From: a virus
DNA length: 35,894 nt
Virus record (IMG/VR): IMGVR_UViG_3300017757_002288
Coordinates: 1 to 35,894 of that record
Strand: one strand, 5' to 3'
Positions 1-32,413 of this stretch are shown piece after piece. Below the pieces are notes generated by a model. That model was not told the origin of the DNA, ran no database searches, and saw only the letters and a program-made list of their open reading frames with translations. Numbering within the stretch: the stretch's first letter is position 1; every line of letters begins with the position of its first letter. Both the position numbers and the translations under genes were made by a program.

Positions 1-1602
1 AATCCCAATACCCACGTTAATGGGTGGAAGATTAAGCGGTTTGAGTTCTTCATTGAGTTCCTTGGTAGCAATTAGTATTTCTTCTGCAGACTTGACTGCC
101 ATCTCGGCATGGTCGGGACAATCTAAAGGTGCATTCCAAAAACTCATAATACAGTCGCCCATATATTTGTCGATAGTTCCATTATTATTTAGTATTATTT
201 TTGTTTGCATGTCAAGAAATCTGTTGATAAGTTCTACTAATCCTTCGGGGTCGTCCTGTTTCATATAGTGTTCGCTTATGGGGGTGAATCCACATATGTC
301 CATGAACATGAATGTAAGTTCTTTTCTGTCCCCTCCTAATTTCAATAATTCGGGGTTTTCTGCAAGTTGGTCAACCATGTCGGGAGATAAATACTTTTGG
401 AACTGCTTCTTAATTTCTTCTTTGAGTTTGTATGTTGTATAGTATTGATTGAAAGAGGCATGACCAAAAACAATCATGGAGGCAATCGATGAAAAGAAGG
501 TATCGAAAAGAACGAGTTCTGAAGTCCAAATATAATAGCTCCCACCCACCTGAAGTCCTACAAATCCTAGACTCAATACCCCCGAAAGAATTGTGGGAAG
601 TTTGTAAACCATCACCAATATCAATACAAGAACTAACAGAAGAAGAACAATCTCGAGTTGTTCAAGATAGTAGGATTGTTGTATTTGAACTCCTGACAAG
701 GCGGTTTGGATATGGTTTGCTTGAACTTCGTGGGGATACATTGTACCCACTGGAGTTGAAACTGGATTATTCAATCCCTCAGCAGTTAACCCCCAAACAA
801 GAATCTTATTATTAAGATTTAACTTAGGTAAGTCTACTGCAGAGACCCGTTGGAATTCGTTCCAATAGGTTACCATTACATCACTCGTTGGAGTGGTGGT
901 AATAGGTTTGTCCCTACCCATTCGTAACCATTCAACACCTATCTCTGTAATTCTAGTTTGATATGAAGGTTGGTCTGATAATGCACGTAATGTCTCTAGT
1001 GCAAGAGAAGGATACACTTGGTCGTTTGCAGTGACGATTAGTGGTATTGACCTTGTTGTCCCGTCAAAGTTTGCAGTACCCGAAACACTAGGTGTTGCAA
1101 CTGTAACTCCAACTCCATAAGTATTGTCCTGAAGAATCCTGATAGGACTTGATATTCCCGAAAAGTTCCATAACCAATCTTTTGCTTCACCTCCACCGAA
1201 TGTGGAGTTACCTACGAATGGTGCAGAACCAGTGTCCTTTTGTATGGTCGGTGCAGCTGATAGAATTGTTAATCTGTTTATCAATCCTTCTGCAAAAATC
1301 TCATCTTCTCCTGATTGTCTATCAGGTTGATTGAACAACATAGTGAAAACATGTGTATTAGTGTAATGAGTGTCAAGGAGTAAATCCCTATAGATACTAC
1401 GTTTTATCGGATACTGTCCGAACACTTCAAGTGATTTTTCGTCTATGTCGACTAAGACGATGTTCTCCGTCTGAACTTTTTCCTTACTCTGATGAAGAAT
1501 ATCAAAGTAAGACCAAGTGATATTTTCTACTAGATAAGGTGACCAAATTTTAAGTCCTACTAATGCACCTATAGTGATTAGGACTGTTTTCCAACTATAC
1601 AT
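1..1602 (-). CDS. CHASE2-domain class III adenylate/guanylate cyclase (3' end outside window)
   Basis: The reading frame is open from the ATG at 1602 to the window edge (534 codons, no stop), so the C-terminus is missing. A short N-terminal hydrophobic segment is followed by a roughly 300-residue extracytoplasmic region of CHASE2 type (early motif IVLVDIDEKSLEVFGQYP), then hydrophobic segments near residues 340-400, then the cyclase domain. Metal-binding aspartates are visible at D435 (FMFMDICGFTPISE) and D483 (DKYMGDCIMSFWNAP). The frame ends in NVGIGI, before the transition-state Asn/Arg motif. CHASE2 cyclases are bacterial membrane sensors that make cAMP or cGMP; substrate choice cannot be told here. 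The start overlaps the stop of the 87-residue gene (TAATG), so it is the last visible member of the curlin/FecR transcription unit. Family assignment is strong; the role in a phage is unknown. Confidence 0.9.
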   Translation of the reverse strand, partial: MYSWKTVLITIGALVGLKIWSPYLVENITWSYFDILHQSKEKVQTENIVLVDIDEKSLEVFGQYPIKRSIYRDLLLDTHYTNTHVFTMLFNQPDRQSGEDEIFAEGLINRLTILSAAPTIQKDTGSAPFVGNSTFGGGEAKDWLWNFSGISSPIRILQDNTYGVGVTVATPSVSGTANFDGTTRSIPLIVTANDQVYPSLALETLRALSDQPSYQTRITEIGVEWLRMGRDKPITTTPTSDVMVTYWNEFQRVSAVDLPKLNLNNKILVWGLTAEGLNNPVSTPVGTMYPHEVQANHIQTALSGVQIQQSYYLEQLEIVLLLLVLVLILVMVYKLPTILSGVLSLGFVGLQVGGSYYIWTSELVLFDTFFSSIASMIVFGHASFNQYYTTYKLKEEIKKQFQKYLSPDMVDQLAENPELLKLGGDRKELTFMFMDICGFTPISEHYMKQDDPEGLVELINRFLDMQTKIILNNNGTIDKYMGDCIMSFWNAPLDCPDHAEMAVKSAEEILIATKELNEELKPLNLPPINVGIGI

Positions 1603-1865
1603 TAACTAAATTTCTTTTGTATTCTTTTGAACATATAGTATATTGATAATCCATATGTTGCAAGAACTGTCATTGTGACTCCGATATAAACTAATTCGAT
1701 AGGTGTTAGGAATAGAACCTGCCATACGAAATTTGCAGCTGCTTCTGCATCACCCATTGATTCAGGCATTATAATATCATTCTCTTCGAAGAGGTCTAAT
1801 ATGTCGTCATACTCTTCTTCAGTGAGACATTCGTAATACTCTTTAGGACATTCTACTTGTGTCAT
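1602..1865 (-). CDS. Small membrane protein between curlin and cyclase genes
   Basis: An 87-residue protein I do not recognise. The first 40 residues are acidic (EEEYDDILDLFEEND), followed by one long or two short hydrophobic segments at about residues 45-78 and a basic end (KRIQKKFS), which suggests an anchored protein with a cytoplasmic basic tail. The ATG overlaps the stop of the upstream curlin gene (ATGA), and its own stop overlaps the cyclase start (TAATG). This coupling suggests co-translation with the cyclase. It could be a partner of the cyclase or of the secretion machinery, but nothing in the sequence decides this. Confidence 0.75.
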   Translation of the reverse strand: MTQVECPKEYYECLTEEEYDDILDLFEENDIIMPESMGDAEAAANFVWQVLFLTPIELVYIGVTMTVLATYGLSIYYMFKRIQKKFS

Positions 1866-2497
1866 TGTTGTGTTACCGATATACTACACCCACTTGTTGT
1901 TGCACAATTTTGTGTAAGTGAATATGATTTGTTTGTACTTCCTGTTTGGGTTAGATTCAATGTTGTTGGATATGCACCCTGTAAAGTGATTTGTGCATTA
2001 TGGTTTCCCGAACCTTGTTGTGTAATTGTTGTATCTGAACCAGTTGCAGTTCCATAGAAATAGGTATGTGCATAGTGTGAACCACTACCCGATTGGTGTA
2101 TTTCGTGGTCTACTGAATGTGAGTGTATGTCTAAGTTATGGGTGTGACTTCCATTTTGATATAGGTCTACTGTATTACTATTACCCCATATGTGTCTACC
2201 ATATGTTGCACCATCGTGTTGTTCAATGTTTTCAGTCTTGTTAGTCCCGTCTACGTCACCACCCCATGATTTTCCAGGCCCCCAATATGAGACCCAAGAA
2301 ACAGAATTTCCGTTTCCGTTTTGTGCAATATTGAACACGTTTCCTCCGTGTGCAAATGAAAACTTGACTTCGTTATCATATCCCTTTTGGACTATGTCAA
2401 GGTCAACGTCTCCACTACCCACCTGCTCAACGTGGACATGGTTGTCCCCAGCCCACGCAAGAGGTGTCAATAAAACTAATAATAAAACTTTATTCAT
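1862..2497 (-). CDS. Secreted curlin-repeat protein, histidine-rich (CsgA/CsgB-like)
   Basis: A 211-residue protein with a Sec signal peptide (basic start, leucine-rich core, AWA cleavage site near residue 16). The mature part has degenerate curlin repeats: short strands with alternating polar and hydrophobic residues ending in Q-x-G-x-x-N turns (DLDIVQKGYDNEV, VFNIAQNGNGNSV, TTITQQGSGNHN). Curlin repeats stack as a beta-solenoid and form extracellular amyloid exported through CsgG. About 14 histidines are clustered in the middle (HTHNLDIHSHSVDHEIH). A Cx5C pair (CATTSGC) precedes the last repeat, as in the second curlin-like protein of this cluster. It starts one base after the 49-residue gene and is overlapped by the next gene. 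Fibre subunit versus nucleator cannot be told apart. Confidence 0.82.
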   Translation of the reverse strand: MNKVLLLVLLTPLAWAGDNHVHVEQVGSGDVDLDIVQKGYDNEVKFSFAHGGNVFNIAQNGNGNSVSWVSYWGPGKSWGGDVDGTNKTENIEQHDGATYGRHIWGNSNTVDLYQNGSHTHNLDIHSHSVDHEIHQSGSGSHYAHTYFYGTATGSDTTITQQGSGNHNAQITLQGAYPTTLNLTQTGSTNKSYSLTQNCATTSGCSISVTQQ

Positions 2498-2498
2498 T

Positions 2499-2648
2499 CT
2501 AGATAATCCATAAAAATAATAATGTAAATATTACTCCCTTACCGAATGATAACCACATCATGTGGTAGTTGTCCAGTAATAATGCTTTTTGAAATCCGTC
2601 AATTTGGATTTCGTGCCAGTCACGGAGTTTCTCTAACATCTTATTCAT
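2499..2648 (-). CDS. Tiny membrane protein, 49 residues
   Basis: This short gene lies between the FecR and curlin genes and begins MNKMLEKLRDWHEIQ. It has a charged N-terminal half and a hydrophobic C-terminal segment (VIFTLLFLWII), so it is probably a single-pass membrane protein. A good ribosome binding site (AGGAGA) lies 8 bases before the ATG. An exact late promoter box lies 34 bases upstream inside the end of the FecR gene, making this the first gene of the distal curlin/cyclase unit. No family is recognised. Confidence 0.7.
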   Translation of the reverse strand: MNKMLEKLRDWHEIQIDGFQKALLLDNYHMMWLSFGKGVIFTLLFLWII

Positions 2649-2658
2649 ATATTTTCTC

Positions 2659-3795
2659 CTAGTTTGTTTGTGTAATGGAAATATTTATAGACGAACCATC
2701 ACCCACCTTAATTAGTGAACCTTTTTCGTCTGTTTCAGTTCTAATCGTTGCTTGTGCATAGATTGGTATTTTAATGGATATGATTCCATTAACTTCCCTG
2801 TAGAACCAAATTTGACCAAGACCCTTATCAACAATTGTATTGTATTGAGTGTCTTTATCAAACCCAAATGCAGTTCCTTCTATTCTTGCAACTGAAAAGG
2901 CGTCTGCCTTTTTCTCTACATCAATACCAACCTTTCGGTCAATCTCTAAAACCACATCTAGTAAATCTTGTAAGAAATCGATATCTAATAAATCTCTATC
3001 GAGTTCTGTATATTCTAGTTCGTCTTCCTCAAAGTAATCCTCTTCTAAGTCATTAAACTCTAGGAAGTCTACGTCAAGAATGTTGCTACTATCATTTTCT
3101 GTTTGTTGTTCCTCTGCAATTTGATTCTCAACTTCATCAGGTGGATTAACAATAAACATATTATCAATCATACCTACAGTAATCCCATTGACTTTCACTG
3201 GTTTAGTCGGTGAATCGTCAAAGGTGGATACCATAGTTGCTTGATAAGCTTCTTCCAATGTAACACTTCCACCAGCATTACTCACTATTATTTTACCCGA
3301 GGGATTTCCCCATTTATCAGGCAAAAGTATAACAAGTGACCTTCCGATTTCATCTATACTTGTAGTGAAATCTGTTCCAACCACAGCAATTTGTGCTGTA
3401 GGTGTTGACACTTTAATATTACTTTTCTTTATCTTACCACCAAAACCCGAGGCAAATCTAGCTGTCCCTTGTGCCATTCGGATTGTCATTTTCGATTTAG
3501 AAGGGTCGGGGTCATAATAGACCTCGTCAATCCAAACCTTGGAGTGTTCAGTTAAGTCCAGTTCTTCTTCACCTATGAACTCAATCTTCATTCTCCCATT
3601 TTGTGTTTGTGCTGTATCATACATCAACACTGAGGGTTCACTATCTGCAAGGACAACGGAATTCTCTCCGTCCCTTTGAAGACCTGCGTATCCCTTGTAT
3701 TCAACTATTTCACCAATCGGTTCACCATAAGCAAGTGAACCAATTAGTAAAACGTTAATCGTTAGAATCTTTCTGAACGATATCAATATTCGCAT
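2659..3795 (-). CDS. FecR-domain secreted protein
   Basis: A 378-residue protein with a probable signal peptide (basic FRK, hydrophobic core, LAYG near residue 24). Residues 27-190 resemble a FecR domain: an IRMAQGTARFASG stretch near 105-117 and the characteristic STPTAQIAVVGTDF at 130-143. An Asp/Glu-rich linker (about 225-285) and a second beta-rich region follow. FecR-domain proteins in bacteria sense or transmit extracytoplasmic signals, and they are often encoded near CHASE2 cyclases, as here. The start codon lies inside the upstream curlin-like gene (41-base overlap) and no later ATG fits the signal peptide. No sigma/anti-sigma partner is visible. It could be a periplasmic scaffold for the fibre or an input to the cyclase. 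Confidence 0.8.
   Translation of the reverse strand: MRILISFRKILTINVLLIGSLAYGEPIGEIVEYKGYAGLQRDGENSVVLADSEPSVLMYDTAQTQNGRMKIEFIGEEELDLTEHSKVWIDEVYYDPDPSKSKMTIRMAQGTARFASGFGGKIKKSNIKVSTPTAQIAVVGTDFTTSIDEIGRSLVILLPDKWGNPSGKIIVSNAGGSVTLEEAYQATMVSTFDDSPTKPVKVNGITVGMIDNMFIVNPPDEVENQIAEEQQTENDSSNILDVDFLEFNDLEEDYFEEDELEYTELDRDLLDIDFLQDLLDVVLEIDRKVGIDVEKKADAFSVARIEGTAFGFDKDTQYNTIVDKGLGQIWFYREVNGIISIKIPIYAQATIRTETDEKGSLIKVGDGSSINISITQTN
2682..2689 (-). promoter_or_regulatory. T4-type late promoter box upstream of the distal curlin unit
   Basis: TATAAATA on the minus strand inside the 3' end of the FecR-domain gene. The predicted start of transcription (5 bases after the box) is near 2676, giving a 28-base leader with an AGGAGA ribosome site before the 49-residue gene. 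It would give independent late expression of the 49-residue, His-rich curlin, 87-residue and cyclase genes. Confidence 0.6.
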
Positions 3796-4483
3796 TAGAA
3801 GTCACGAAAGATACATCAATAATACCACTACATGATTGACCACTTGGACAACCACTATCTGAACCACTCTTTTGAATGATGTCGATATCATTTGTAGAAC
3901 CAGTTAAAACTGCAGTAATACTATTATCAGTTGCGTCTGATTGGTTAGTGTTAACGTCATTTGAAGAACCAGTAATAGTCCAATTCCAAACTGCGTTATC
4001 ACTATCTACTTTTGTAGTGAATACGTTTGAAGACCCATTTAATGTTAAATCCCAGTTAAGATATTCTGCAGAAGCATCGTATCCGACATCAATATCGAAT
4101 GTGTTCGATGAACCTGTAATTGTTCCTAACATGTTTGTGTTATCAGCACTTCCACTATATCCTACGTTCCAATCCATAACATTTGAATCACCAGTAAAAG
4201 TTAAGTTTACTGTTGAACTATCTGCAATGAAAGGCCCGTACAATTTGTTAGAGTCTCCATCTTGTAATAATGTTAAACTGTTGGTTGCACCAGTCAAAAT
4301 CATATCTATAGATGAACCCGAAAAATCGTCTCCACCTAATTTGTTTCCATAACCCTTCTGAGTTATGTTCAACGTTAAATTGTCACCTGACTGTTGAATC
4401 CATACTTCGTTATCGTCTGCACCAGCAAACACGAATCCAGTTAATCCTAATGATAAACATAATAAAAGAAGTTTATTCTTCAT
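3755..4483 (-). CDS. Secreted curlin-like repeat protein, acidic (CsgA/CsgB-like)
   Basis: A 242-residue protein with a clear signal peptide (FVFA near residue 20). The mature N-terminus matches the other curlin protein of this cluster (VWIQQSG..LTLNITQKGYGNKL against VHVEQVG..VDLDIVQKGYDNEV). About seven further turns follow the pattern strand-TG-[SDA]-[ST]-N-strand (MILTGATNSLTLL, WTITGSSNDV, AVLTGSTNDIDII). A Cx5C pair (CPSGQSC) precedes the last repeat. It contains no histidine and many aspartates, unlike its partner. It overlaps the end of csgG by 11 bases and has a GAGG ribosome site. It is probably a CsgG substrate forming beta-solenoid fibres; the repeats are more divergent than enteric CsgA, so amyloid formation is inferred. 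Confidence 0.8.
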   Translation of the reverse strand: MKNKLLLLCLSLGLTGFVFAGADDNEVWIQQSGDNLTLNITQKGYGNKLGGDDFSGSSIDMILTGATNSLTLLQDGDSNKLYGPFIADSSTVNLTFTGDSNVMDWNVGYSGSADNTNMLGTITGSSNTFDIDVGYDASAEYLNWDLTLNGSSNVFTTKVDSDNAVWNWTITGSSNDVNTNQSDATDNSITAVLTGSTNDIDIIQKSGSDSGCPSGQSCSGIIDVSFVTSNANIDIVQKDSND

Positions 4484-5402
4484 TTTCTTTATCCTCTGTA
4501 ACTAAGACGATTTCATTTTCATCTAAAAAGTCCGACACTTCTTGCTCTATTTTTGCATCAGTTATCGGCCAATTTATCTTCCAAAATCCCCTTTTGTCAC
4601 CTTGTTTTATAAGTTCTAAGACTGCAAGTTCAATTGCAGAACGAGTAGCTTTTGATACTCCTTCGTTAGTTGCAACTCCGTCTTCTATTTCCACTAATTG
4701 GGTATCCATATCCATAAATTTGAATACGTCATACCCCCCACCAGTCGATAAAATCGTCTTAGTAGTTTGCACATTAAGTAATATTTCACCCGTAAGTGTA
4801 GAGATTCCTCTCAGACTTACAGTTACAACATCTCTTCTATAAGAGTTCGAAGCACCGATGCCTAATGTTCTTGCACCTCGGCCTCCCGATTCAATGTTGG
4901 TATCATATCCAATTATCCCCCCGTCAAGAAGGATACCAGCAAATAAGAGAGGTTGAATTCCTGTTGGGGAATCTTCATTACCTTCTTGATTTGCAAAGTC
5001 TTCTCTTGCACTTCGTATGATTTGTCTCTCTCTTACGAGTGCATCTAAATTTGTTCGTTCTACAACTCTAAACCAGTTTCCACCACTTGCAGTTTTAAGT
5101 GCATCAATCAAATATGATTCTGCACCTTGGGTTACTGCAGTTGAGAAAGATGCAATTCCGTCTTTACTCTTCCTCTGTCCTGTCTTATCTAAAAACCCAT
5201 ATACTGCAACAATAGGCATTGTTTCAGCAGGTGGTAGGTCTCTTAATTCTAAGTAAGTAGGTATATTTACCACTTCTGCCTCTTCAATACACGTTCCTAC
5301 ACGTTCCATAACTGTAGAAGTGCAACTGTCCTTGACAGAAGGCACACTTGCACACCCACTAGCGAGCAAGACCAATAGACCTAATAAACCTAAATGTTTC
5401 AT
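4473..5402 (-). CDS. csgG: CsgG-like curli secretion channel lipoprotein
   Basis: A 309-residue protein with a lipoprotein signal (LLASGC, lipidated Cys17) and a CsgG-family body: IVAVYGFLDKTGQRK near residues 64-78, a GNWFRVVERTNLDALVRERQIIR stretch near 108-130, LLFAGILLDGGIIGYDTN, and RDVVTVSLRGISTLTGEIL. CsgG forms a nonameric outer-membrane pore that exports curlin subunits. The C-terminus (EEVSDFLDENEIVLVTEDKE-like) is acidic and extends beyond the enteric protein (277 residues). It directly follows csgF (one base past its stop) and overlaps the curlin-like gene, forming a secretion-substrate operon. CsgE, CsgC and CsgD are not visible. The family call is firm; whether it works in the host outer membrane is inferred. 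Confidence 0.92.
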   Translation of the reverse strand: MKHLGLLGLLVLLASGCASVPSVKDSCTSTVMERVGTCIEEAEVVNIPTYLELRDLPPAETMPIVAVYGFLDKTGQRKSKDGIASFSTAVTQGAESYLIDALKTASGGNWFRVVERTNLDALVRERQIIRSAREDFANQEGNEDSPTGIQPLLFAGILLDGGIIGYDTNIESGGRGARTLGIGASNSYRRDVVTVSLRGISTLTGEILLNVQTTKTILSTGGGYDVFKFMDMDTQLVEIEDGVATNEGVSKATRSAIELAVLELIKQGDKRGFWKINWPITDAKIEQEVSDFLDENEIVLVTEDKENEE

Positions 5403-5861
5403 TTAGAAACTTCCCGTTGCAACTGGTATATCTAAAATAGTTTCAGTTCCGTCCTCACTTACAATTGTTAATCTTATGATTTCTTGTCCGTCTTCGAGGA
5501 CTAATTTTTCGTATGTGACTGTATTTCCTTCTATGGAGAATATTCCGAAACTTGCAGCCTCTCCATTAGAGAACATATTCTCTACTAACTGTTTTGCAAT
5601 TTGAGCATAGATTCTAGATTCGACATTTCTTAAAAATTTTGCAAGCGTAGTGTTGTTTGCTTCTCTCTCTGCTTTTGCGATTCTGTCTTCTATGTCTTGT
5701 GCTATCTTATCACGTCTAGATTTCTCTTGGTTCTCGATAGTAAGATAGTGTGAACTTTGTCCAAGACCACTGAAGCTTGGACTTTTGAATTTGTGTACTA
5801 TTTCATCTGCACTTAGTGTAAATGCAAAACAAATACTACTTATTATTATCAGTTTTTTCAT
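5403..5861 (-). CDS. csgF: CsgF-like curli assembly factor
   Basis: A 152-residue protein with a signal peptide (cleavage near LSA, residue 18). It carries the CsgF signature: an N-terminal segment that plugs the CsgG pore (FKSPSFSGLGQSSHYLTIEN), a helical linker rich in charged residues, and a beta-rich C-terminal domain beginning at IYAQIAKQLVENMF. CsgF binds CsgG at the cell surface and couples secretion to fibre nucleation. It is slightly longer than enteric CsgF (138). It overlaps the upstream 94-residue membrane-protein gene by 26 bases and is followed immediately by csgG, as expected for a functional pair. Confidence 0.9.
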   Translation of the reverse strand: MKKLIIISSICFAFTLSADEIVHKFKSPSFSGLGQSSHYLTIENQEKSRRDKIAQDIEDRIAKAEREANNTTLAKFLRNVESRIYAQIAKQLVENMFSNGEAASFGIFSIEGNTVTYEKLVLEDGQEIIRLTIVSEDGTETILDIPVATGSF

Positions 5862-6120
5862 CTGTTATAGCCTTTCCTCTTTTCTTTGCGTTCTCTTTAT
5901 ATTCAAGAACTACGTCCACTTTTTGTTGTAGACGAATCAAGTCTTGGTCTAACATTCGCACTTGGTCAATCACTTTAATCAATGCAAAGTGTTGTTTTTC
6001 GATTTCGGGTTCCAATTTTTCACCCACAAACCACCATATGTAATATACGAAATAACCAAGTCCAACCATCATTACGATTGGAAATCCATAATCAGATATA
6101 AGTTGTGCTACGTTTTCCAC
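5836..6120 (-). CDS. Single-pass membrane protein with coiled coil, paralogue A
   Basis: A 94-residue protein: a hydrophobic segment at about residues 11-33 (FPIVMMVGLGYFVYYIWWFV), then a heptad-like helix (IEKQHFALIKVIDQVRMLDQDLIRLQQKVDVVL) and a charged tail. It resembles its upstream neighbour in layout and sequence (both begin with LIS-x-x-G-x-PI and have G-[YF]-F after the membrane core), so the two look like a tandem duplication. The layout resembles BhlA-like small holins as well as generic phage membrane proteins. The start overlaps the neighbour's stop by one base and its end overlaps csgF, so it belongs to the curli transcript. Confidence 0.75.
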   Translation of the reverse strand: MENVAQLISDYGFPIVMMVGLGYFVYYIWWFVGEKLEPEIEKQHFALIKVIDQVRMLDQDLIRLQQKVDVVLEYKENAKKRGKAITDEKTDNNK

Positions 6121-6413
6121 TAGTCCCTTCTCACATCAAGTTTCCCGTCTTCTATAAAGTTCTCTGCACGTGCAACTCTCTCTATATCGGGTCTGAGTTC
6201 TAAGGCACTTGACACTAACATGTCTATCTTAATCATTTCGTTAGACATTGTTCTTGCACGATTCTCTAAACTCTTACAAAACATGGTTAAGGTCTTGATA
6301 GAATCAACGACACCCTCAAGTATCTGCTTGATTACAGTGAAAATAAAGAACCCCATAACTAAACTTCCAGCAATTGGAGCTCCCACTTCACTTATCAATG
6401 CAAATATATCCAT
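6120..6413 (-). CDS. Single-pass membrane protein with coiled coil, paralogue B
   Basis: A 97-residue protein: hydrophobic segment at about 10-30 (APIAGSLVMGFFIFTVIKQIL) followed by an amphipathic helical region and a charged C-terminus. It is paralogous to the next gene. A late box ends 5 bases before this ATG, which places the predicted mRNA 5' end on the start codon, and only a weak AGGG lies between, so translation may be leaderless. It heads the csgF-csgG-curlin-FecR operon. Function unknown; a small holin-like or secretion-accessory role is possible. Confidence 0.75.
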   Translation of the reverse strand: MDIFALISEVGAPIAGSLVMGFFIFTVIKQILEGVVDSIKTLTMFCKSLENRARTMSNEMIKIDMLVSSALELRPDIERVARAENFIEDGKLDVRRD

Positions 6414-6418
6414 ACCCT

Positions 6419-6426
6419 TATTTATA
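6419..6426 (-). promoter_or_regulatory. T4-type late promoter for the csgF-csgG operon
   Basis: TATAAATA followed by AGGGT and then the ATG at 6413. It lies directly downstream of a terminator, so the curli operon has its own late transcription start. Spacing of 5 bases between box and ATG equals the known distance from a T4 late box to +1. Confidence 0.7.
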
Positions 6427-6427
6427 T

Positions 6428-6454
6428 AAAAAAAGGGGACGAAGTCCCCTTTTT
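6428..6454 (-). terminator. Rho-independent terminator
   Basis: A perfect GGGGAC/GTCCCC stem with a TTC loop on the minus strand, flanked by an A-tract and a T-tract, so it may work in both directions. It sits just after the 77-residue gene (end 6472) and separates the holin-like unit from the curli operon. Confidence 0.88.
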
Positions 6455-9202: not shown

Positions 9203-9868
9203 TTAAACATTGTATTTAGAATCAGGCTCCAATGCAATAAAATACTCTAAATCCACATCTTTGTTTTTAAAGTGTGAGATTCCTTTTGACGAAACTAATA
9301 CTTCGTAGTTTCCATCTAGGACTTTAAGGTTCTCAATCTTAAAGTTCATAGTGTATGAAACACCATTTCCTTCACCCACGATTCTTGAGAATGTGTTTGA
9401 AGTTGAATTCTTTTTGTCTGTCACTTGCAATGTGATAGTAGTTCCATCACTTGAAAGAACCAAATCACCTACACCTAGAACACTAGCAGCTTTCTGCAAC
9501 TCGTTTAGAAGTGTAGAGGAAATATCAATTCCAATCTCTGCGTCAGGCATTGTTATCATTTTCTCGGGTGAAGTCACCATACCTTCACTTGCATAGAAAT
9601 ATGCAAGACTTGAATTGTTGTCTGCAACTGTTAAACTTGCATCACCAAATTGAAAGTCGGGGTCTTCCAGTAAACTGGTTGCACCTAAGAATTCAGGCAG
9701 ATTGTAGATACTGAAATCTTGAGGAAAGTCCTCAGATACAGTTGCAACTGCAAGAATGTTTTTCATATTAGAGATTGTCTGAAGTGTATTACCACTTGAA
9801 ACCTTAATCCCTTGGTTTATTGTTGAGAAATTTTTGAAGATATCTCTCGTATCATTACTAATTTTCAT
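9203..9868 (-). CDS. 45: Sliding clamp
   Basis: A 221-residue protein of T4 gp45 length (228) with a clamp-like alternation of strands and helices (TRDIFKNFSTINQGIKV, NLPEFLGATSLLEDPDFQFG, MPDAEIGIDISSTLLNELQKAA). gp45 trimers act as the DNA polymerase processivity clamp and as the mobile activator of late transcription with gp55 and gp33. The ATG at 9868 overlaps the upstream stop (TGATG); a GTG three bases earlier is less likely. About 120 bases separate it from gp44. Confidence 0.93.
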   Translation of the reverse strand: MKISNDTRDIFKNFSTINQGIKVSSGNTLQTISNMKNILAVATVSEDFPQDFSIYNLPEFLGATSLLEDPDFQFGDASLTVADNNSSLAYFYASEGMVTSPEKMITMPDAEIGIDISSTLLNELQKAASVLGVGDLVLSSDGTTITLQVTDKKNSTSNTFSRIVGEGNGVSYTMNFKIENLKVLDGNYEVLVSSKGISHFKNKDVDLEYFIALEPDSKYNV

Positions 9869-10176
9869 CACTTGTTAGCCTCCTTTGTCGCTTTGTCGTG
9901 AACATGTAACATGAATAGACCATAATGTAATACCTTTAAGATATCTGCTCTATTCTTCCCACCTTTTTTTCCGTATCGTTGTGCATATTTCATAATGTTC
10001 CCGATACAAAAACCCTCACCATGACCACTGTCAATAATAAATTCAGTGGACTGGTATTTGTTTAAACTATAATGTTGTTTATAGGTGTTGTCGATATACT
10101 GGGAAAACTCATTTAAGAGTTCTCCCTCGTTATATCTGTAATCAATTTTGTTCTTTTTACCAAACATACTAATCAT
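9868..10176 (-). CDS. DUF3310-like small protein
   Basis: A 102-residue protein from the ATG at 10176; a second ATG at 10167 is also possible and lies just after the upstream stop. The conserved core is TEFIIDSGHGEGFCIGNIMKYAQRYGKKGG followed by ADILKVLHYGLFMLHVHD, which has the C-x-G-N-x-x-K-Y-x-x-R-x-G-K-K...D-x-x-K-x-x-x-Y pattern of DUF3310-type phage proteins (sometimes annotated as nucleotide-kinase-like). The biochemical role is not established. It is coupled to gp45 by a TGATG overlap. Confidence 0.75.
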   Translation of the reverse strand: MISMFGKKNKIDYRYNEGELLNEFSQYIDNTYKQHYSLNKYQSTEFIIDSGHGEGFCIGNIMKYAQRYGKKGGKNRADILKVLHYGLFMLHVHDKATKEANK

Positions 10177-11419
10177 TATACTCTGAAGACTCAGTTTCGT
10201 CAACTGGGTTTTCTGCATTCAAGTCTACTCCAGCATCAATTTTGGAGTAGAGGTCGAGGATACTATTTCTAGTCTCTTCGTCAAACCTTGAAATACACAT
10301 GGTTATTGACTTGAGTTTGTCATTGAACATTCTGAATGCATTGACAATGTGAACCAATCTTCTAGTGGTAATGACATCATCAATCGCACCTTCATAGTAG
10401 GTTTTTCTGATTATGTCTGCCCAATCTACTAGTTTGATACAGAACTCTTCGTCAACATCACCAGTAAGTGCCATTTCTTTTTTAAGAATACTTCTCTCAG
10501 TAGTAACTGGTGGGTATTCTTGTTGCATTGTGATTGCAAACCTTTCCAACATGGCTTCATTCATGATTTGAGTTCCTATGAACTTTCCATCATCAGACCC
10601 TTGTCCTTTAGTGTTTGCAGTTGCAAGAATTGTGAAACCTTCTTTAGGTGAAACCCACTCACCAGTTTTCTTGATTAGGTATCCTTTACCTTCAAGAACT
10701 GATTGTAGACACATAAGTTTGTTAGAACCCAAGTCAACTTCGTCAAGAAGAAGGACAGCACCTTTTCTCATTGCTTTGATAACAGGGCCTTCTCTGAAGA
10801 CAACATTACCATTGACCAAAGTATGACCACCCATTAGGTCGTCTTCATCAGTCTCGATTGTAATGTTAACTCTGAAAAGTTCTCTCTTCAATTGAGCACA
10901 TGTTTGTTCAATCATAAGAGTTTTACCATTTCCACTTAGTCCAGTAATGAATACTGGGAAAAAGATTTTGGACTTGATAATTCCTTTAACGTCTTTGAAA
11001 TGTCCAAAAGGAACATAGTTAGACATCTTCTCGGGAATGATTTTAATATTGTCATTCAAGTTAACAGACTCAGTCGCAGCGGCAACTGGCATGTTTTGTG
11101 GAGCAACTGGTGGTGCAACTGCAACCACTTGAGGTGCTGGATTTACAGGAGGAACAACTGCAGATTCAGAATATCCACCATTGTATCCACCGATAATTTG
11201 GGTAAGATTAAAGACACCATTGTCTCTAAAATTGTACCTAGAAGATTTTACCCAATATGGGAACGTCCCAGTATTGTCAATTTCTTCTTTAGTAAAAACC
11301 GATTGATTCGGATACTTAGATACCAGTGTATCTAAAAATTCCTTCCTATCGGGTGTGTAGTGAAACGGCTTTCCCATCACGTCAATCGATTCACTTCTGT
11401 CATAACTTCTTTTATCCAT
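10169..11419 (-). CDS. cobS: CobS-like / MoxR-type AAA+ ATPase
   Basis: A 416-residue protein. The N-terminal region (1-75) is followed by a Pro/Val/Ala-rich linker (88-115) and an AAA+ domain with Walker A GLSGNGKT (160-167), DEDDLMGGHTLVNGNVVFREGPVIKAMRKG, Walker B LLLDEVD (223-229) and a TILATANTKGQG sensor. In marine T4-like phages this family is commonly annotated as cobaltochelatase subunit CobS. It pairs here with a VWA-domain protein, the usual MoxR/VWA arrangement, so a chaperone role in protein remodelling is at least as likely as a cobalamin role. An AGGAGA ribosome site and a promoter about 50 bases upstream are visible. Confidence 0.85.
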   Translation of the reverse strand: MDKRSYDRSESIDVMGKPFHYTPDRKEFLDTLVSKYPNQSVFTKEEIDNTGTFPYWVKSSRYNFRDNGVFNLTQIIGGYNGGYSESAVVPPVNPAPQVVAVAPPVAPQNMPVAAATESVNLNDNIKIIPEKMSNYVPFGHFKDVKGIIKSKIFFPVFITGLSGNGKTLMIEQTCAQLKRELFRVNITIETDEDDLMGGHTLVNGNVVFREGPVIKAMRKGAVLLLDEVDLGSNKLMCLQSVLEGKGYLIKKTGEWVSPKEGFTILATANTKGQGSDDGKFIGTQIMNEAMLERFAITMQQEYPPVTTERSILKKEMALTGDVDEEFCIKLVDWADIIRKTYYEGAIDDVITTRRLVHIVNAFRMFNDKLKSITMCISRFDEETRNSILDLYSKIDAGVDLNAENPVDETESSEYND

Positions 11420-11466
11420 ATAGTCTCCTTTTTAAGTTGTTATTAGTTATTTTTCTCATCTTGTAT

Positions 11467-11496
11467 AGTATACTAAAAAGTGGCACCTATAGTCAA
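11467..11496 (-). promoter_or_regulatory. Sigma70-like early/middle promoter for the CobS-like gene
   Basis: -35 TTGACT (11491-11496), 18-base spacer, -10 TATACT (11467-11472). The predicted leader is about 40 bases and carries the AGGAGA ribosome site of the CobS-like gene. The spacer contains CCACTTTTTAG, shared with the 14.36 kb promoter and nearly with the 14.8 kb promoter. Confidence 0.75.
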
Positions 11497-11504
11497 GCAT
11501 ATTT

Positions 11505-11750
11505 TTATTTAATTTGCTCAAATCTTGTTCCCATTTTTAGTTGTTGTTTTTCGTTTAGTTCACCACCATTGTTGACCCAAATTCTAAATGCAAAACATTC
11601 CTTCTCTTCAGTTTTACATTCATTGAACATAGGACAATCATATCTGACGCAAGGTGCAGGCCCCACGTCCATAACTGCGTCTGCAAATTTACTGTAGTCA
11701 TTTTGTGTTGAAATATAATATGCTGGGTCTACTCTTAAAGGGTCTCTCAT
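11505..11750 (-). CDS. Small cysteine-containing protein
   Basis: An 81-residue protein I do not recognise. Four cysteines are clustered in the middle (CVRYDCPMFNECKTEEKECF, spacing C-x4-C-x5-C-x7-C), suggesting a small zinc or iron-sulphur site. It is coupled to the preceding 73-residue gene (ATGA overlap) and ends just before the promoter of the CobS-like gene. Confidence 0.72.
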   Translation of the reverse strand: MRDPLRVDPAYYISTQNDYSKFADAVMDVGPAPCVRYDCPMFNECKTEEKECFAFRIWVNNGGELNEKQQLKMGTRFEQIK

Positions 11751-11968
11751 GATGTTATCCTATCTAATTCTTCCATTGTTTTACTGTTATCCAGTAGTAT
11801 CACTTCGTAAGTGTCTAATACTGTATCATATTCTACGATATGAGGAATGTCGACACCCTTAGAAGAGGCAATATCCACCTTTTCTGTAAATGTCCTAAAG
11901 TCATCTTTCGATAAGACTGCAGTTATATTCGTCATATTTTCATACTTCACTTCATAGTTTTTCATCAT
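11747..11968 (-). CDS. Hypothetical protein downstream of the CobT-like gene
   Basis: A 73-residue protein (MMKNYEVKYENMTNITAVLS...) with a mixed alpha/beta pattern and no recognisable motif. The start overlaps the stop of the CobT-like gene and has a GGAGATAGC ribosome site; a second ATG three bases later is equally possible. It appears to belong to the same transcript as the CobT-like gene. Confidence 0.72.
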   Translation of the reverse strand: MMKNYEVKYENMTNITAVLSKDDFRTFTEKVDIASSKGVDIPHIVEYDTVLDTYEVILLDNSKTMEELDRITS

Positions 11969-14349
11969 GCTATCTCCTTGATAAATTCGTTAGTCAAAAA
12001 TCTTGAAGTTGTTTTAGATTTTTGATTTCTTTTGAAGGCAGCCATTACCCTCACTTTTTTTGCATCAACATACTCTTCTCCAAGTTCATCAGAACCATCA
12101 GTTTGCATGTTGTTTGCATGGGTAATAAACAGTTTGTTATACCCATGACACTTGAACACTTTACCTTCTTTTCTGATTTCTCTCCATGCAGAATCATAGT
12201 CATAAAAGTTTTCTCCTTTGACAAAAGGCATAATGTTGTAAAGGTCTGCTTTTCTACCTAGAACAAAGTATCCAGTGATAACCACATCACAAGTTTCTGA
12301 TATCCAGTGTAGAAGGTTCTGAGTAGTTTCAAAACTACTTCTATAACCATAACCACTTTCGGGTTTGTTAAGAGTGAACACTTTGTTTAGATAAGGGTCA
12401 ATTAAGTCTCTTCCTTTTCTACATCTCCAAGAGTCTTCACCGATAGTTTTTTCTTGTTCTGCAATGTCTCTTCTCTCATCACCAGTGATTTGAAGGAAGT
12501 CTGCACTATGTGAGAATCCATCAGTGATTACAGTCAAGATTGATTTTTCGACATTGTATTTTGCATTGAACTCAGGCAATAATTTTCTAAGTGCAACAAG
12601 TGTTTGGTCAAGTGGAGTTCCACCTAGTCTGTAATTCTGAGGTCTGAAGTTTGTTTCAACGTCCCAGTATCTTCCATCATCTGAAAGTGCTTCGAACTCA
12701 CCAAAGAACTCATTGTATTTTGCAATTGACTTCTGATAGTTTCTCCAACCAATCTTTTGACTGAAGTAGTTTGCATACATGCAACCCAAGTAAGTCATCA
12801 TTTCTTTATGTTGTCTATTGTTCATTTCGTTAGAAAGTATTTCAATAAGTTTTCCACCATTGTCTCTATAACCATAATCATCTTCTTTTTCTCTTCCAGT
12901 ATAATATGCGTCTGAGAATAGATACACTCTGTAAGGAATGTTTGTTTTTCTACAGAACTCTGCAAGAATCATTGATTGTTCTAGAAGGTCTGTAACTTCA
13001 TCACAAATTGAACCACTCCAATCAACAAGAACATTCAACCCGTGGTTCTGACCCTCGGGAAGGTAAATTGCTCTTTTGAAAATGTCATCAACAATTTGAT
13101 ATTTTGCAAGTCTATTCATATCAAGTTTACCAGTTTTACCAGTAAATGCTTTCTTAGAAACTTTTGCAGTTTGTTTCATCTCAAATTCTTTTGCCATGTG
13201 AGCAACAATCTTTTTGTTTTTTTGTTCCAATCTCTTCGCAGCAAAACAACCTCTAGAATATTCTTTGAATCTTCTCTCTTCACTATAGTAAGAATCGTTA
13301 TCAGTAATATATTTTTTCCAATCACTAATAACTGTCTTGAAAGGAATAACAACATCTTTCATATCGTTGTTTTTGAAAGTATCTTTTAGATTGATTGAAG
13401 ACATGATTATGTTTTCGTCTGAAAGAAATTGTTCTTCATTGTTATGTGCAAAGTGTTCAGTGATTGATTCCCTTGCACCATCTTCGTCATCGTGGAAACC
13501 TTGGTCTTTACCACCTTCTTTACCACCAGTAGACTTGACTTGATTATCTGCCTCTTCTTCAGTTTCAGTTTCTTCGTCAACTTCGTCTTCCTCTGAATCA
13601 CCTTGGTCGACATTATCACCAATCTCGGGAAGAGAATCTTCTTCTTCGTCTTCCTCTGAATCACCATACTCATCTTCATAATCTTCATTAGAAGACTCAA
13701 ATTCTTCTTCTTGTTCTTCTTCGTCTCCTTCTTCTTCATCACCAACGTCAAACATTTGAGGAACTAACATTTCGTCATCTTCAGTTCTAGTCTCATTCTC
13801 TTTAGAATACTCATAGATTGCAGTTGCACATTCAACAACGTCTTCCCAAGTCTTACATGCTTCTGCCATATCTAAGAAACCTTGTTCAACTGTATTGAAT
13901 TTAAGACCAAGTCTTGAACCGACTTTAGTTTGTAAATTGATTTTGTCAATCAATGAAAGTTCTGCAAGATTTCTTTTCTTAAGTTGGAAGAAATCCATTT
14001 CCATCAATTCATTGTATGCAGTAAAGAAAGACTTCCTCAATCCTTGGAATTTGTTTTTGATTGCTTTCTCAATCCTAACGTCTTCAACAACGTTAAGATA
14101 TCCTTTAAGTGTTCTGTTTAGTTCTAATGCAGAATGAAGACCCTCGTAAGGTGTATTCAATGCATGTCCAACTTCATGACCCATGAATAGGTCATAGAGT
14201 TCATCACTGATATCTTCTTTAAAGATAGGACAAGCAAGTATCCTATTCTTTACGTCAAAATATGCAGTTGGTATTTTCTTATGAACAACAGTAATATTCT
14301 CTGTTGCCATTAGTTTTGCAAGGGTGTCTTTTTGATTTCTTTTTGTCAT
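11965..14349 (-). CDS. CobT-like VWA-domain protein with HExxH metallopeptidase motif
   Basis: A 794-residue protein. The N-terminal domain has a zinc-peptidase motif HEVGH (58-62, in LFMGHEVGHALNTPYEG) and RIEKAIKNKFQGLRKSF. A highly acidic stretch (about 205-275, runs of Glu/Asp) follows, then a von Willebrand A domain with a metal-ion site (LNVLVDWSGSICDEV, DxSxS). This is the usual partner of the CobS-like AAA+ ATPase in marine T4-like phages. In bacteria CobT and MoxR-associated VWA proteins form an ATPase/VWA complex. Cobalt chelation would need CobN, which is not present here. The start is directly fixed by its promoter: the -10 ends 6 bases before the ATG. Confidence 0.85.
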   Translation of the reverse strand: MTKRNQKDTLAKLMATENITVVHKKIPTAYFDVKNRILACPIFKEDISDELYDLFMGHEVGHALNTPYEGLHSALELNRTLKGYLNVVEDVRIEKAIKNKFQGLRKSFFTAYNELMEMDFFQLKKRNLAELSLIDKINLQTKVGSRLGLKFNTVEQGFLDMAEACKTWEDVVECATAIYEYSKENETRTEDDEMLVPQMFDVGDEEEGDEEEQEEEFESSNEDYEDEYGDSEEDEEEDSLPEIGDNVDQGDSEEDEVDEETETEEEADNQVKSTGGKEGGKDQGFHDDEDGARESITEHFAHNNEEQFLSDENIIMSSINLKDTFKNNDMKDVVIPFKTVISDWKKYITDNDSYYSEERRFKEYSRGCFAAKRLEQKNKKIVAHMAKEFEMKQTAKVSKKAFTGKTGKLDMNRLAKYQIVDDIFKRAIYLPEGQNHGLNVLVDWSGSICDEVTDLLEQSMILAEFCRKTNIPYRVYLFSDAYYTGREKEDDYGYRDNGGKLIEILSNEMNNRQHKEMMTYLGCMYANYFSQKIGWRNYQKSIAKYNEFFGEFEALSDDGRYWDVETNFRPQNYRLGGTPLDQTLVALRKLLPEFNAKYNVEKSILTVITDGFSHSADFLQITGDERRDIAEQEKTIGEDSWRCRKGRDLIDPYLNKVFTLNKPESGYGYRSSFETTQNLLHWISETCDVVITGYFVLGRKADLYNIMPFVKGENFYDYDSAWREIRKEGKVFKCHGYNKLFITHANNMQTDGSDELGEEYVDAKKVRVMAAFKRNQKSKTTSRFLTNEFIKEIA

Positions 14350-14856: not shown

Positions 14857-15519
14857 TTAAGACGATTGTCTTAAAGATAGGTGGTTTGCGTGAAGGTCTT
14901 TTGTTCTTTCGTCTGTAATTATACGACTTCTATTACTACTATACCATTGTGATATAGTGTACCTAGAACCTCTTCTGACGGGGTATACGCCGTGTTCTAA
15001 GTCGATTCCTCTGAATGCTATACCTGTACCCCTTACTGGTGTCATTATTTGACCAGTTGGGCCTTCATGTGGGAAGTAAGTTTCACCACCTCTGAATGAT
15101 TCAACGGAATCTTCGTGTCCATTTATATAGAGAATTACAGTCCATTCACGACTTGTTTCGTCCTTAATACCTTCTCTTATATCAACGTCTGAAACTGAGT
15201 CATTATGTGGTTCTTGAACACCACCGATTTTCCACTCATTTATTGCAGACATTTCGGGATATACTCTTAAACCCGAATGTTTATAGATTTCTGAGGTAAC
15301 GTCAAATGCTAATCTATTAAAGATATCACGAACCCATTGGGTATGAATGTGCAATATGTTTATTGCAGTGTAATCTGACCCGTCTCCGACTGTTCTAAGA
15401 TGCTCGTGCGTCTTCAGATACAGAATCAAGTCCTTCGATTCCTGTTCCGTTATCAGATTCGGAAGTATCAGAACTTTCTCGTTCTTGTATAGCTCTTGCG
15501 ATTGCAATTCTTGTTTCAT
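14857..15519 (-). CDS. 2OG-Fe(II) oxygenase (prolyl-4-hydroxylase-like)
   Basis: A 220-residue protein with the Fe(II)/2-oxoglutarate site H105-x-D107 (EPHNDS), H176 (DLEHGVYPV) and the 2OG-binding Arg186 (RRGSRYTIS), preceded by the typical INEWKIGG and followed by a WTVILYING / FRGGETYFP jelly-roll core. Such enzymes hydroxylate protein or small-molecule substrates and are common in marine T4-like phages; the substrate is unknown. The ATG at 15519 lies 125 bases inside the deformylase gene in another frame; the conserved start (VLILPNLITEQESKDLI) falls within that overlap, so it appears real. TAAGAGAA serves as a weak ribosome site. Confidence 0.88.
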   Translation of the reverse strand: MKQELQSQELYKNEKVLILPNLITEQESKDLILYLKTHEHLRTVGDGSDYTAINILHIHTQWVRDIFNRLAFDVTSEIYKHSGLRVYPEMSAINEWKIGGVQEPHNDSVSDVDIREGIKDETSREWTVILYINGHEDSVESFRGGETYFPHEGPTGQIMTPVRGTGIAFRGIDLEHGVYPVRRGSRYTISQWYSSNRSRIITDERTKDLHANHLSLRQSS

Positions 15520-16021
15520 AATCAATTCTCTTACGTCTCTCTTTTGGACGTGATTTTAATGCACGTTCAACTTTGAGTCTAGACGCACGTTGTATGAATA
15601 GTATTCCATTTAAATGGTCACATTCATGTTGGACACACCTTGCACCTAACCCTGTAAGGTATATAGTGTGTTCTTCACCCTCTGCGTCTTGGTATTTTAG
15701 TTCTATCTCTTTTGACCTTTTAATCATTAGATAAAGGTCGGGGAAAGATAGACAACCCTCTTTCATTAAATCTGTATCTTGAGAAACTTTAGTTATTTCG
15801 GGATTGAAGAATGCTTTGATACCACTGTCTGCAGTTCTCATTACAAATACTCTGTAATCTAATCCCAACTGATTTGCAGATAATCCAATTCCACCAAATC
15901 GTTCCATTGCACTTGCAAGATTTGTTTCAATCTCTTTTGGGTCTTCGGGTGGGTTCTCGAAATCGAAAACGGGTGGTGGTGTGCGTAAGACTTTTGAAGC
16001 CTCGTCTATCAATTCATACAT
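15395..16021 (-). CDS. def: Peptide deformylase
   Basis: A 208-residue protein with all three deformylase motifs: GGIGLSANQLG (43-53), EGCLSFP (88-94, metal ligand Cys90) and QHECDHLNG (131-139, HExxH with both histidines). The enzyme removes the formyl group from new N-termini and is a well-known auxiliary gene of marine T4-like phages. About 40 residues after the catalytic core are polar and low complexity (ESSDTSESDNGTG) and are encoded where the next gene overlaps. It starts one base after the stop of the upstream late gene. Confidence 0.95.
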   Translation of the reverse strand: MYELIDEASKVLRTPPPVFDFENPPEDPKEIETNLASAMERFGGIGLSANQLGLDYRVFVMRTADSGIKAFFNPEITKVSQDTDLMKEGCLSFPDLYLMIKRSKEIELKYQDAEGEEHTIYLTGLGARCVQHECDHLNGILFIQRASRLKVERALKSRPKERRKRIDYETRIAIARAIQERESSDTSESDNGTGIEGLDSVSEDARAS

Positions 16022-21144: not shown

Positions 21145-21293
21145 TTTATCTTCCCTAATTTCTCGTCACAATGTGGACATTTGAGGGGGATATCTAATAG
21201 TTTTGTGATTGCAACATGTTTATCCCAATCCTCTCTTTCTTTCGGAGGTGAGTTAAACATTTCACTCGGTAATGGGAATCCTACGTGTTTCAC
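21141..21293 (-). CDS. Small CxxC protein, GTG start
   Basis: A 50-residue soluble protein starting at a GTG that overlaps the stop of the 60-residue membrane gene (GTGA). It has FPLPSEMFNSPPKEREDWDKH and a C-terminal C-P-H-C motif (LKCPHCDEKLGKIK), a half zinc-ribbon or thiol site. Overlap at both ends supports it as a real gene of the cytochrome cassette. Role unknown; metal or heme handling is possible but only suggested by the context. Confidence 0.6.
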   Translation of the reverse strand: MKHVGFPLPSEMFNSPPKEREDWDKHVAITKLLDIPLKCPHCDEKLGKIK

Positions 21294-21472
21294 TTACCCA
21301 ATCCTATATTGATTAACCAAAATGCAAGTAACATAAATCCAAATACTACTACTTGAACTACTGACATTACTGCAACTTGTTTCATGGGGTGAACTTCAAC
21401 AATTTTCTCAATCCAAGATTCATCAGGTGATAAGTTAACGACTTGTAATACTTTCTCTTCAGTCGTCTTCAC
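21290..21472 (-). CDS. Small single-pass membrane protein next to cytochrome c
   Basis: A 60-residue protein with a charged N-terminal half (MKTTEEKVLQVVNLSPDESW) and one membrane segment at about 33-56 (VAVMSVVQVVVFGFMLLAFWLI). Its start overlaps the cytochrome gene stop by 4 bases. Size and layout resemble accessory subunits of respiratory complexes, but no sequence motif confirms this. Confidence 0.7.
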   Translation of the reverse strand: MKTTEEKVLQVVNLSPDESWIEKIVEVHPMKQVAVMSVVQVVVFGFMLLAFWLINIGLGK

Positions 21473-21912
21473 TTTAGTTCTACCTCTATAAACTTACCAA
21501 TCATATTGATATCTGCATCACTCAACATTCCTGCTTGAGCCCACATAGTAGAAGACATTGCACCGACTGTTTCTCTGTTCTTGTATGCATTAAGTCTACC
21601 TACAATATAATCTGCAGTTTGACCTTTAAGTGCTGGGAATACTGCCATTCCTTCACCATTCTGACCATGACAAGCGGCACAACCCGCCCATAGACTTCTG
21701 ATATCACTGAACTCATCTAAGTTTGCAAGTGCCTGTTTTCTCTGTTCTATTTCAGCAGGTGTTCCGAATTGTTCAACATAGTCAACATAACACTGACCCG
21801 TGCAACTATGTCCTCCAGTTCCACCTGTATATTCTAAATTTGGATATATCTTAAATCCAAAAAACACACCTATTGCAAGTGTGCATAGTAATGCTTGTCC
21901 TAGTTCTCTCAT
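21469..21912 (-). CDS. Membrane-anchored class I cytochrome c
   Basis: A 147-residue protein: an N-terminal membrane anchor or uncleaved signal (residues 5-20, GQALLCTLAIGVFFGF), an intermediate region with a second cysteine pair (HSCTGQC, 35-41), and a cytochrome c domain with heme motif C78-A-A-C81-H82 followed by GQNGEGMAVFPALKGQ. The axial methionine is probably M119 or M123 (GAMSSTMW). It would carry electrons in the periplasm, with host Ccm machinery needed for heme attachment. It lies among five tiny genes (four membrane proteins and a CxxC protein) in one overlapping operon. A phage-borne cytochrome c is unusual; assembly error is unlikely because all junctions overlap and phage genes flank both sides. 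Confidence 0.9.
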   Translation of the reverse strand: MRELGQALLCTLAIGVFFGFKIYPNLEYTGGTGGHSCTGQCYVDYVEQFGTPAEIEQRKQALANLDEFSDIRSLWAGCAACHGQNGEGMAVFPALKGQTADYIVGRLNAYKNRETVGAMSSTMWAQAGMLSDADINMIGKFIEVELK

Positions 21913-24764: not shown

Positions 24765-25448
24765 TTATTTGAAAGGATTACCTACTAACCACCCTACTAG
24801 TGATGTTCGAGTTCCTCGTGTGACTGGTGTGACTTGGTGGTGAACGTCTGAAGGGAATATGATAATACTACCTCTTGTCTTTGCACTGAATGGTGCAGTC
24901 TTTTTCATATTATCTAAAAGAATATTGTTCTGACCTAATTGTAACTTATCAAAAGTTCCAGTAGGTTCTAACCATTCAAAATGACCACCTTCATATTCAT
25001 CGGGGTCTGATAATTGAATAGTGCAACTTAACTTACGAACCTTTCCGTCTGTTCCATGTTCTTGTCCAACTGGGCCTGAATCTGTATGCCATGTATAGAA
25101 ATCACCTTTCTTTTTGTTAGGTTGTTCTGCATATTTGGTGAATTGAAAGTTTTCAAAGTAATCTAAATCCCAGTTCCAAAGATTATCTCCTCTTGCATAC
25201 TCAACTGCACTTGCAAGTTTTTCATGGAATGGTTGTGGTAATTCTTCATGTTGTAACCATTTTACTTCTGACCTTCTAATTTCGTCTCTTTCACTTCCGT
25301 CTATTGTTTCTATTCCATCAGGGTCAAAACCTGCGAATCCGACTCTTCCACCTTCCCACTCTTTTCTATTTGCACATGCAATTATAGTATCAACTTCTGT
25401 TGGGGTGAAATATCCTTCTGCAATCCAAACATAGTTTTGATATATCAT
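24765..25448 (-). CDS. 2OG-Fe(II) oxygenase (prolyl hydroxylase type)
   Basis: A 227-residue protein from the ATG at 25448 (TAATG overlap with UvsY; a longer reading from 25475 is unlikely). Iron ligands H121-x-D123 (YTWHTDSGP) and H204 (DVHHQVTPV), 2OG-binding Arg214 (GTRTSLVGW); the core is KLSCTIQLSDPDEYEGGHFEW. This closely resembles PiuC/prolyl-hydroxylase-like phage oxygenases. The substrate is unknown; protein or nucleic-acid modification is possible. Confidence 0.9.
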   Translation of the reverse strand: MIYQNYVWIAEGYFTPTEVDTIIACANRKEWEGGRVGFAGFDPDGIETIDGSERDEIRRSEVKWLQHEELPQPFHEKLASAVEYARGDNLWNWDLDYFENFQFTKYAEQPNKKKGDFYTWHTDSGPVGQEHGTDGKVRKLSCTIQLSDPDEYEGGHFEWLEPTGTFDKLQLGQNNILLDNMKKTAPFSAKTRGSIIIFPSDVHHQVTPVTRGTRTSLVGWLVGNPFK

Positions 25449-32408: not shown

Positions 32409-32413
32409 ACTAA

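Follow-up and report, generated by a model that had tools for sequence, protein, structure and literature searches.

Introduction

SAR11 bacteria rank with the most abundant of the sea, and curli genes have been reported in phages that infect them (PMC7029224, PMC9599517). In pelagimyophages, csgF and csgG were described together with a 'sibling capture' idea (PMC7029224), and for pelagipodophages the gene order csgF-csgG-csgA/B-FecR-csgA/B-cyclase was given, with one or two 'histidine kinases' ahead of it (PMC9599517). The curli operon of phage Melnitz was read as a pore without fibre genes, and was proposed to time lysis (PMC9004378). Here we analyse such a module in the viral record IMGVR_UViG_3300017757_002288, the whole 35,894 bases of which are called the window below, and argue that it would serve late secretion of a surface fibre.

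Results

A curli module in a T4-like phage

The window was assigned to a T4-like phage by matches to gp18, gp20, gp23, gp44 and gp55, as the initial annotation of this DNA had proposed, and it also encodes a gp45-type clamp domain. The T4-type proteins matched in it include the portal, major capsid and sheath proteins, a clamp loader, a UvsW-type helicase and the late sigma factor gp55. After the gp44 region, positions 1-6413 form a minus-strand operon of tm97, tm94, csgF, csgG, curlin A, fecR, p49, curlin B, p87 and a CHASE2 cyclase, in which neighbouring genes overlap or nearly touch (gaps of -41 to +10 nt). All the genes named in the annotation (csgF, csgG, two curlins, FecR, membrane proteins and a cyclase) were found in place and on that strand, and the relatives it mentioned in pelagimyophages have indeed been published with the same module (PMC7029224). 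Since the module is already published down to FecR and the cyclase, it is a known phage feature and the window locus is a further example of it. At the level of sequence, the gene content, gene order, late-type promoters, export signals and fold similarities are established.

Export parts

CsgG matched the CsgG of the PDB at 5.4e-67, and its lipobox Cys was invariant in 20 sequences. Phe, Tyr and Asn are the residues with roles at the CsgG constriction. Aligned to E. coli, this segment reads ASFSTAV against ASNFSTAV, with Phe kept and both Asn and the upstream Tyr replaced. The initial annotation had made its case depend on CsgG having its pore residues: the constriction Phe bears this out, whereas the E. 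coli Tyr and Asn do not. In CsgF, the F, P, F and G of an F-x-x-P-x-F-x-G segment (FKSPSFSG) were invariant, and the segment aligned with FRNPNFGG, the pore-binding N-terminus of E. coli CsgF; the profile match to the PDB was weak (E 0.16) and is usable for the motif alone. Both curlins start with signal-peptide-like N-termini, and a C-terminal strand of the form phi-x-phi-x-Q was present in 166 of 169 curlins. Curlin B lay above the Curlin_rpt cut-off (Table 1). Curlin A matched curlin B in a profile comparison (8.6e-7) and was predicted by AlphaFold2 as a beta ladder (predicted local distance difference test score 81, predicted template modelling score 0.76), for which a fold search gave no PDB match below 1e-3.

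As the annotation had noted, CsgE is absent: none was found in four module-bearing phage records (141-154 kb), nor in the Hyphomonas genome described below; for CsgC no profile search was made. CsgE has been reported to be non-essential, with a reduced yield in its absence (PMC7029224), and we therefore did not count its absence as excluding membership of type VIII secretion. The predicted export parts of a type VIII secretion (curli) system are present, namely a CsgG channel, a CsgF pore segment and curlin-repeat substrates with export signals, as the annotation had held.

Late promoters and terminator

The window has 11 copies of the octamer TATAAATA, of which the coding strand bears 10; 2.8 were expected, and no shuffle out of 100 reached the observed number. 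Among 56 octamers of the same composition it ranked first in the window and also in 16 relatives (48 copies, the mean being 13). Across 80 viral loci, 165 late boxes lay on the coding strand and 5 on the opposite strand. Enrichment, position ahead of genes and a late sigma factor encoded in the window characterise these boxes as T4-type late promoters. In the module, TATAAATA or NNTAAATA occupies two conserved sites, one before tm97 and one within the 3' end of fecR, and the exact boxes that the annotation had seen at both were confirmed; among the viral loci compared, exact boxes at these sites were missing from more distant phages. The terminator that it had placed ahead of the operon was likewise recovered, as a hairpin with a folding energy of -14.9 kcal/mol (z -3.9).

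Of 98 distinct sequences upstream of tm97, 56 have TAAATA at a distance of exactly 5 nt from the ATG, which leaves no room for a Shine-Dalgarno sequence. The T4 late box lies at -13 to -6 relative to the transcript start. With this spacing and a box 5 nt upstream, the tm97 transcript is predicted to start on the ATG itself and would be a leaderless mRNA. The portal gene gp20 (window 32408-32421) also has TATAAATA exactly 5 nt ahead of its ATG, like tm97, and a class of leaderless late mRNAs in such phages is possible.

The TAAATA within fecR was retained in all 41 distinct window-type genes. At the box codons Ile was ATA in 32/32 cases (29% elsewhere in the same genes), Leu was CTA or TTA in 9/9 (50% elsewhere) and Asn was AAT in 41/41 (70% elsewhere), the neighbouring next Ile codon being variable; these 41 genes share kinship and the codon counts are not independent. 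The swap from Ile to Leu with the DNA motif retained points to selection on this box as DNA. Read from promoter sequence alone, expression of the module late in infection is well supported.

Late-type promoters argue that the fibre would be made at about the time of assembly and release, which narrows the ideas on its purpose. Exclusion genes are usually early. A fibre coat that blocks the adsorption of other phages, as suggested in PMC9599517, would draw on the same machinery, and with such a module it would be displayed on the surface; expressed late, however, it would cover only the final part of the infection, and we regard superinfection exclusion as an unlikely purpose.

The FecR-domain protein

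The FecR protein begins like a signal peptide; this is followed by a FecR fold (residues 28-205), a disordered acidic linker (about 212-301) that was modelled at low confidence, and a C-terminal beta domain of six strands that terminates in INISITQTN. Its sole hydrophobic segment is formed by residues 3-21, with no further membrane span. No anti-sigma domain was detected in it, Pfam giving PF04773 only, and neither an extracytoplasmic function (ECF) sigma factor nor a TonB receptor occurs among the module proteins, no genome-wide search having been made. A FecIR-type iron regulator is made unlikely by the missing cytosolic anti-sigma N-terminus, inner-membrane span and adjacent ECF sigma factor or TonB receptor. 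This bears on the idea that the channel imports nutrients (cofactors, siderophores) into the infected cell. A CsgG without CsgE may stay open, and FecR has been read as iron-related (PMC9599517), but the protein has no anti-sigma part and no inner-membrane span, its bacterial relatives are adhesin-type, and two curlins and CsgF would be left unexplained. We consider nutrient import very improbable.

Because the best match by E-value in a fold search was the PupR cell-surface signalling domain (6ovk, 3.5e-4), the fold alone does not decide the function. The anchoring domain of the antifreeze adhesin MpAFP (5ix9) matched with a Foldseek probability of 1.00 and a template modelling score of 0.68 to the target (E 0.056), and it was also the sole weak sequence match of the FecR domain (E 0.11). 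Among the best FecR relatives from 385 alphaproteobacterial genomes, the majority were located towards the N-terminal end of large open frames, which reached about 6,900 aa; two of these were examined, one with RTX and the other with Calx-beta and a weak LapA match. Several alphaproteobacterial FecR proteins (L242, L245 and L379) have a CHASE2 protein encoded divergently next to them.

A phi-x-phi-x-Q strand ends the FecR protein in 82 of 83 distinct sequences, whereas CsgG (0/106), CsgF (5/102), the cyclase (1/58) and the tm proteins (0/181) rarely or never end in this way. Since this terminal strand is common to FecR and the curlins and not to the other module proteins, it suggests that FecR joins the curlin fibre or its anchoring, and the protein may be a periplasmic fibre anchor. 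A more specific model, which we offer tentatively and hold to be doubtful, is that FecR acts as a fibre stopper or anchor: its domain would sit under the CsgG-CsgF pore, the linker of about 90 residues would thread the channel and the C-terminal strand would nucleate or cap the fibre, a LapA-like plug replacing CsgB/CsgE whose plugged state the CHASE2 cyclase would sense. If true, features of curli and of adhesin retention would be combined in one system, which phages and perhaps certain marine bacteria would have. A literature search for FecR, CHASE2 and curli gave the known pelagiphage paper as the sole one with curli as its subject, and the phrase 'FecR domain', searched with adhesin terms, was in no paper among the matches listed.

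Small membrane proteins and cyclase

In the window tm97 and tm94 are 94-97 aa long, with an N-terminal hydrophobic segment as their single span. From position and number, the published 'histidine kinase' genes are very probably tm97/tm94; the label was rejected, as no kinase domain (HisKA, HATPase) was found in 30 tm members. When loci were sought with the tm proteins, csgF/G lay downstream in all 63 that had 1.5 kb or more of downstream sequence, and because of this linkage the tm pair is a constant component of the module in phages. Similarity of the pair to holin families was weak (phrog_4898 in 8/30 members, best 7e-5 over 20 residues; YvrJ, best 0.11).

This similarity and the late boxes could be taken to favour the role put forward for Melnitz (PMC9004378), in which CsgG-CsgF would be a gated pore that times lysis in the manner of a pinholin or secretin, the fibre being secondary or absent. 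But tm97 accompanies csgF/G throughout, a linkage that would not be needed for a generic holin, and CsgG belongs to the outer membrane and is no holin. Moreover, two curlins and FecR are conserved with export features, and Melnitz itself encodes two curlin-repeat proteins, contrary to the text of the paper. A lysis-timing pore is thus quite unlikely, and the reading that we favour is the late secretion of a fibre anchored at the surface.

The full cyclase gene (612 aa) is available in the near-identical contig L003 (7571-9409; CHASE2 1.6e-29, cyclase 9e-16). The protein aligned with solved adenylate cyclases through the catalytic region, where the metal Asp, the substrate Lys and Asn/Arg could be read from the alignment; by its domains and predicted catalytic residues it is a class III adenylate cyclase with CHASE2.

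Conservation and relatives

Two scans for CsgG relatives returned viral contigs down to about 56% identity, and over the whole protein the isolates HTVC008M and Melnitz were 47% and 41% identical. The order tm97-tm94-csgF-csgG-curlin-FecR-(p49)-curlin-(p87)-cyclase recurred in all sufficiently long contigs, at CsgG identities of 41-100%; the synteny check that the annotation had proposed therefore came out uniformly in every locus reaching far enough. Conserved order, dense packing and built-in phage late promoters in many divergent phages argue for selection on the module, and they largely refute the view of it as captured bacterial cargo without a selected role. That view, to which the same operon in one bacterial genome lends some colour, we regard as extremely improbable.

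The bacterial operon is that of Hyphomonas sp. TMED17 (L091), where csgF-csgG-curlin-FecR-CHASE2 cyclase follow in this order on a 705-kb contig among ordinary bacterial neighbours. FecR and the cyclase accompany curli in a bacterium too, which qualifies the published statement that they lie outside bacterial type VIII secretion operons. In 20 further csgG loci from this bacterial family, neither FecR nor the cyclase was found beside the gene, and operons of the Hyphomonas type are rare. In the CsgG tree the viruses grouped with TMED17, apart from all other bacteria (99/94), and TMED17 stood among the phages at the end of a long branch; a single viral clade was not rejected (AU p 0.056), and the trees favour neither direction of transfer.

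Curli modules of phage type also occurred in contigs binned as Sphingobacteriales, Saprospirales, Flavobacteriales, Synechococcus, Pelagibacter and Rhodobacteraceae metagenome-assembled genomes (MAGs; L085-L090 and L092-L095). In most of them the phage type was evident from the tm pair and the csg order, and all are probably misbinned phage contigs. A 6.9-kb contig of a Pirellulales MAG (L109) carries csgF-csgG-curlin without the tm pair, beside open reading frames resembling ClpS, an Hsp20-type chaperone, heme oxygenase and IMP/GMP reductase, and perhaps represents another curli-bearing phage type. A CsgG 40% identical to that of the window lies in OR851715.1 (L084; 1,499 bases), deposited as 'Salmonella phage S.Kent 1-2-1'; this is a short, unannotated wastewater contig marked UNVERIFIED, and its host label is doubtful.

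Discussion

We hold it to be probable that this is a phage type VIII secretion module, expressed late, in which CsgG-CsgF exports curlins A and B as a surface fibre whose benefit is most likely a sticky coat. It is timing in vivo, secretion, fibre formation and purpose that we infer here. CsgG-CsgF would form the outer-membrane channel through which both curlins leave the periplasm, and these would assemble as a beta-solenoid or amyloid fibre on the infected cell while it is still intact. The FecR-fold protein would probably serve as periplasmic anchor and the CHASE2 cyclase as envelope sensor, and the two small membrane proteins are a dedicated phage addition to the module. The likely benefit would be a sticky late coat that keeps neighbouring cells or debris close to the progeny. 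Several points weigh against this reading. Cultures infected with Melnitz showed no clumping (PMC9004378). Curlin A is divergent and falls below the Pfam cut-off on its own (0.059), none of the four phage records has a CsgE, without which export in E. coli is strongly lowered, and no sequence evidence discriminates between purposes.

Clearest among the new results are the late promoters, the changed assignments of FecR and of the 'histidine kinases', and the bacterial counterpart. With FecR as an anchor and the 'histidine kinases' as small membrane proteins, the readings as iron regulation and two-component signalling are removed, and the mechanism becomes testable.

Table 1. Features of the curli module and its upstream boundary in the window
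Feature	Coordinates	Strand	Remarks
Terminator-like hairpin	6430..6454	-	GGGGAC-TTC-GTCCCC between A/T tracts; ends the upstream unit; late box directly after
Late promoter box TATAAATA	6419..6426	-	5 nt ahead of the tm97 ATG
tm97	6120..6413	-	small membrane protein, N-terminal anchor, coiled-coil-like tail; phrog_18771
tm94	5836..6120	-	paralogue of tm97
CsgF	5403..5861	-	signal peptide, then FKSPSFSG motif; Pfam 1.2e-10
CsgG	4473..5402	-	outer-membrane lipoprotein channel; Pfam 1e-47; lipobox Cys17
Curlin A	3755..4483	-	divergent curlin repeats; C-terminal strand NIDIVQ
FecR-domain protein	2659..3795	-	signal peptide, FecR fold, acidic linker, C-terminal beta domain; FecR 2.7e-9
Late promoter box TATAAATA	2682..2689	-	within the fecR 3' end; would drive p49-curlin B-p87-cyclase
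p49 (49-aa protein)	2499..2648	-	single hydrophobic segment; kept in window-type loci
Curlin B	1862..2497	-	canonical QxGxxN repeats; terminates SISVTQQ; Curlin_rpt 4.8e-6
p87 (87-aa membrane protein)	1602..1865	-	found in some relatives
CHASE2 class III adenylate cyclase (predicted)	1..1602	-	3' end lost at contig edge; CHASE2 1.1e-29

Other genes of the window

A cytochrome c gene lies at window 21469-21912 on the minus strand (Pfam Cytochrom_C 1.1e-7, CAACH motif) and is followed by a gene for a 60-aa membrane protein (21290-21472, minus strand); as the cytochrome c had no PHROG match, it is unusual for a phage. The window also carries two 2-oxoglutarate-Fe(II) oxygenase genes (14857-15525 and 24765-25475), a peptide deformylase gene (15395-16021) and CobS/CobT-like genes (10169-11419 and 11965-14349).

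Comparison with known systems

The module of pelagiphage HTVC008M, csgF-csgG-curlin-FecR-curlin-adenylate cyclase with two small genes ahead, has the same order as that of the window, and its CsgG is 52% identical over the matched part; the window adds p49 and p87, and its module occupies another genomic place. In the passages of PMC7029224 and PMC9599517 consulted here, late-promoter anatomy is not described for the pelagiphage module. The operon of the methylophage Melnitz also shares the gene order, with two curlins, FecR and the cyclase. The text of its paper states that csgA/csgB are lacking (PMC9004378), whereas the record (MZ577097.1, L083) annotates two curlin-associated repeat proteins and FecR at 9731-10450 and 10428-12525, and the curlins were also found by hidden Markov model.

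Hyphomonas TMED17 has the same order as the phages but differs in that no tm97/tm94 was found, in its single curlin of 504 aa and in a FecR without the terminal IxIxQ strand. The curli system of E. coli (csgBAC/csgDEFG) has CsgG, CsgF and curlin-repeat substrates in common with the phage module, in which, in contrast, no CsgE was found, FecR and the cyclase are added and the pore constriction is partly changed. Adhesins of the LapA/RTX type, such as MpAFP (5ix9), carry an N-terminal FecR-like anchoring domain with a fold like that of the phage FecR domain; the phage protein differs from them in being short, in having a Sec-type signal peptide and in travelling with CsgG instead of a TolC-type exporter.

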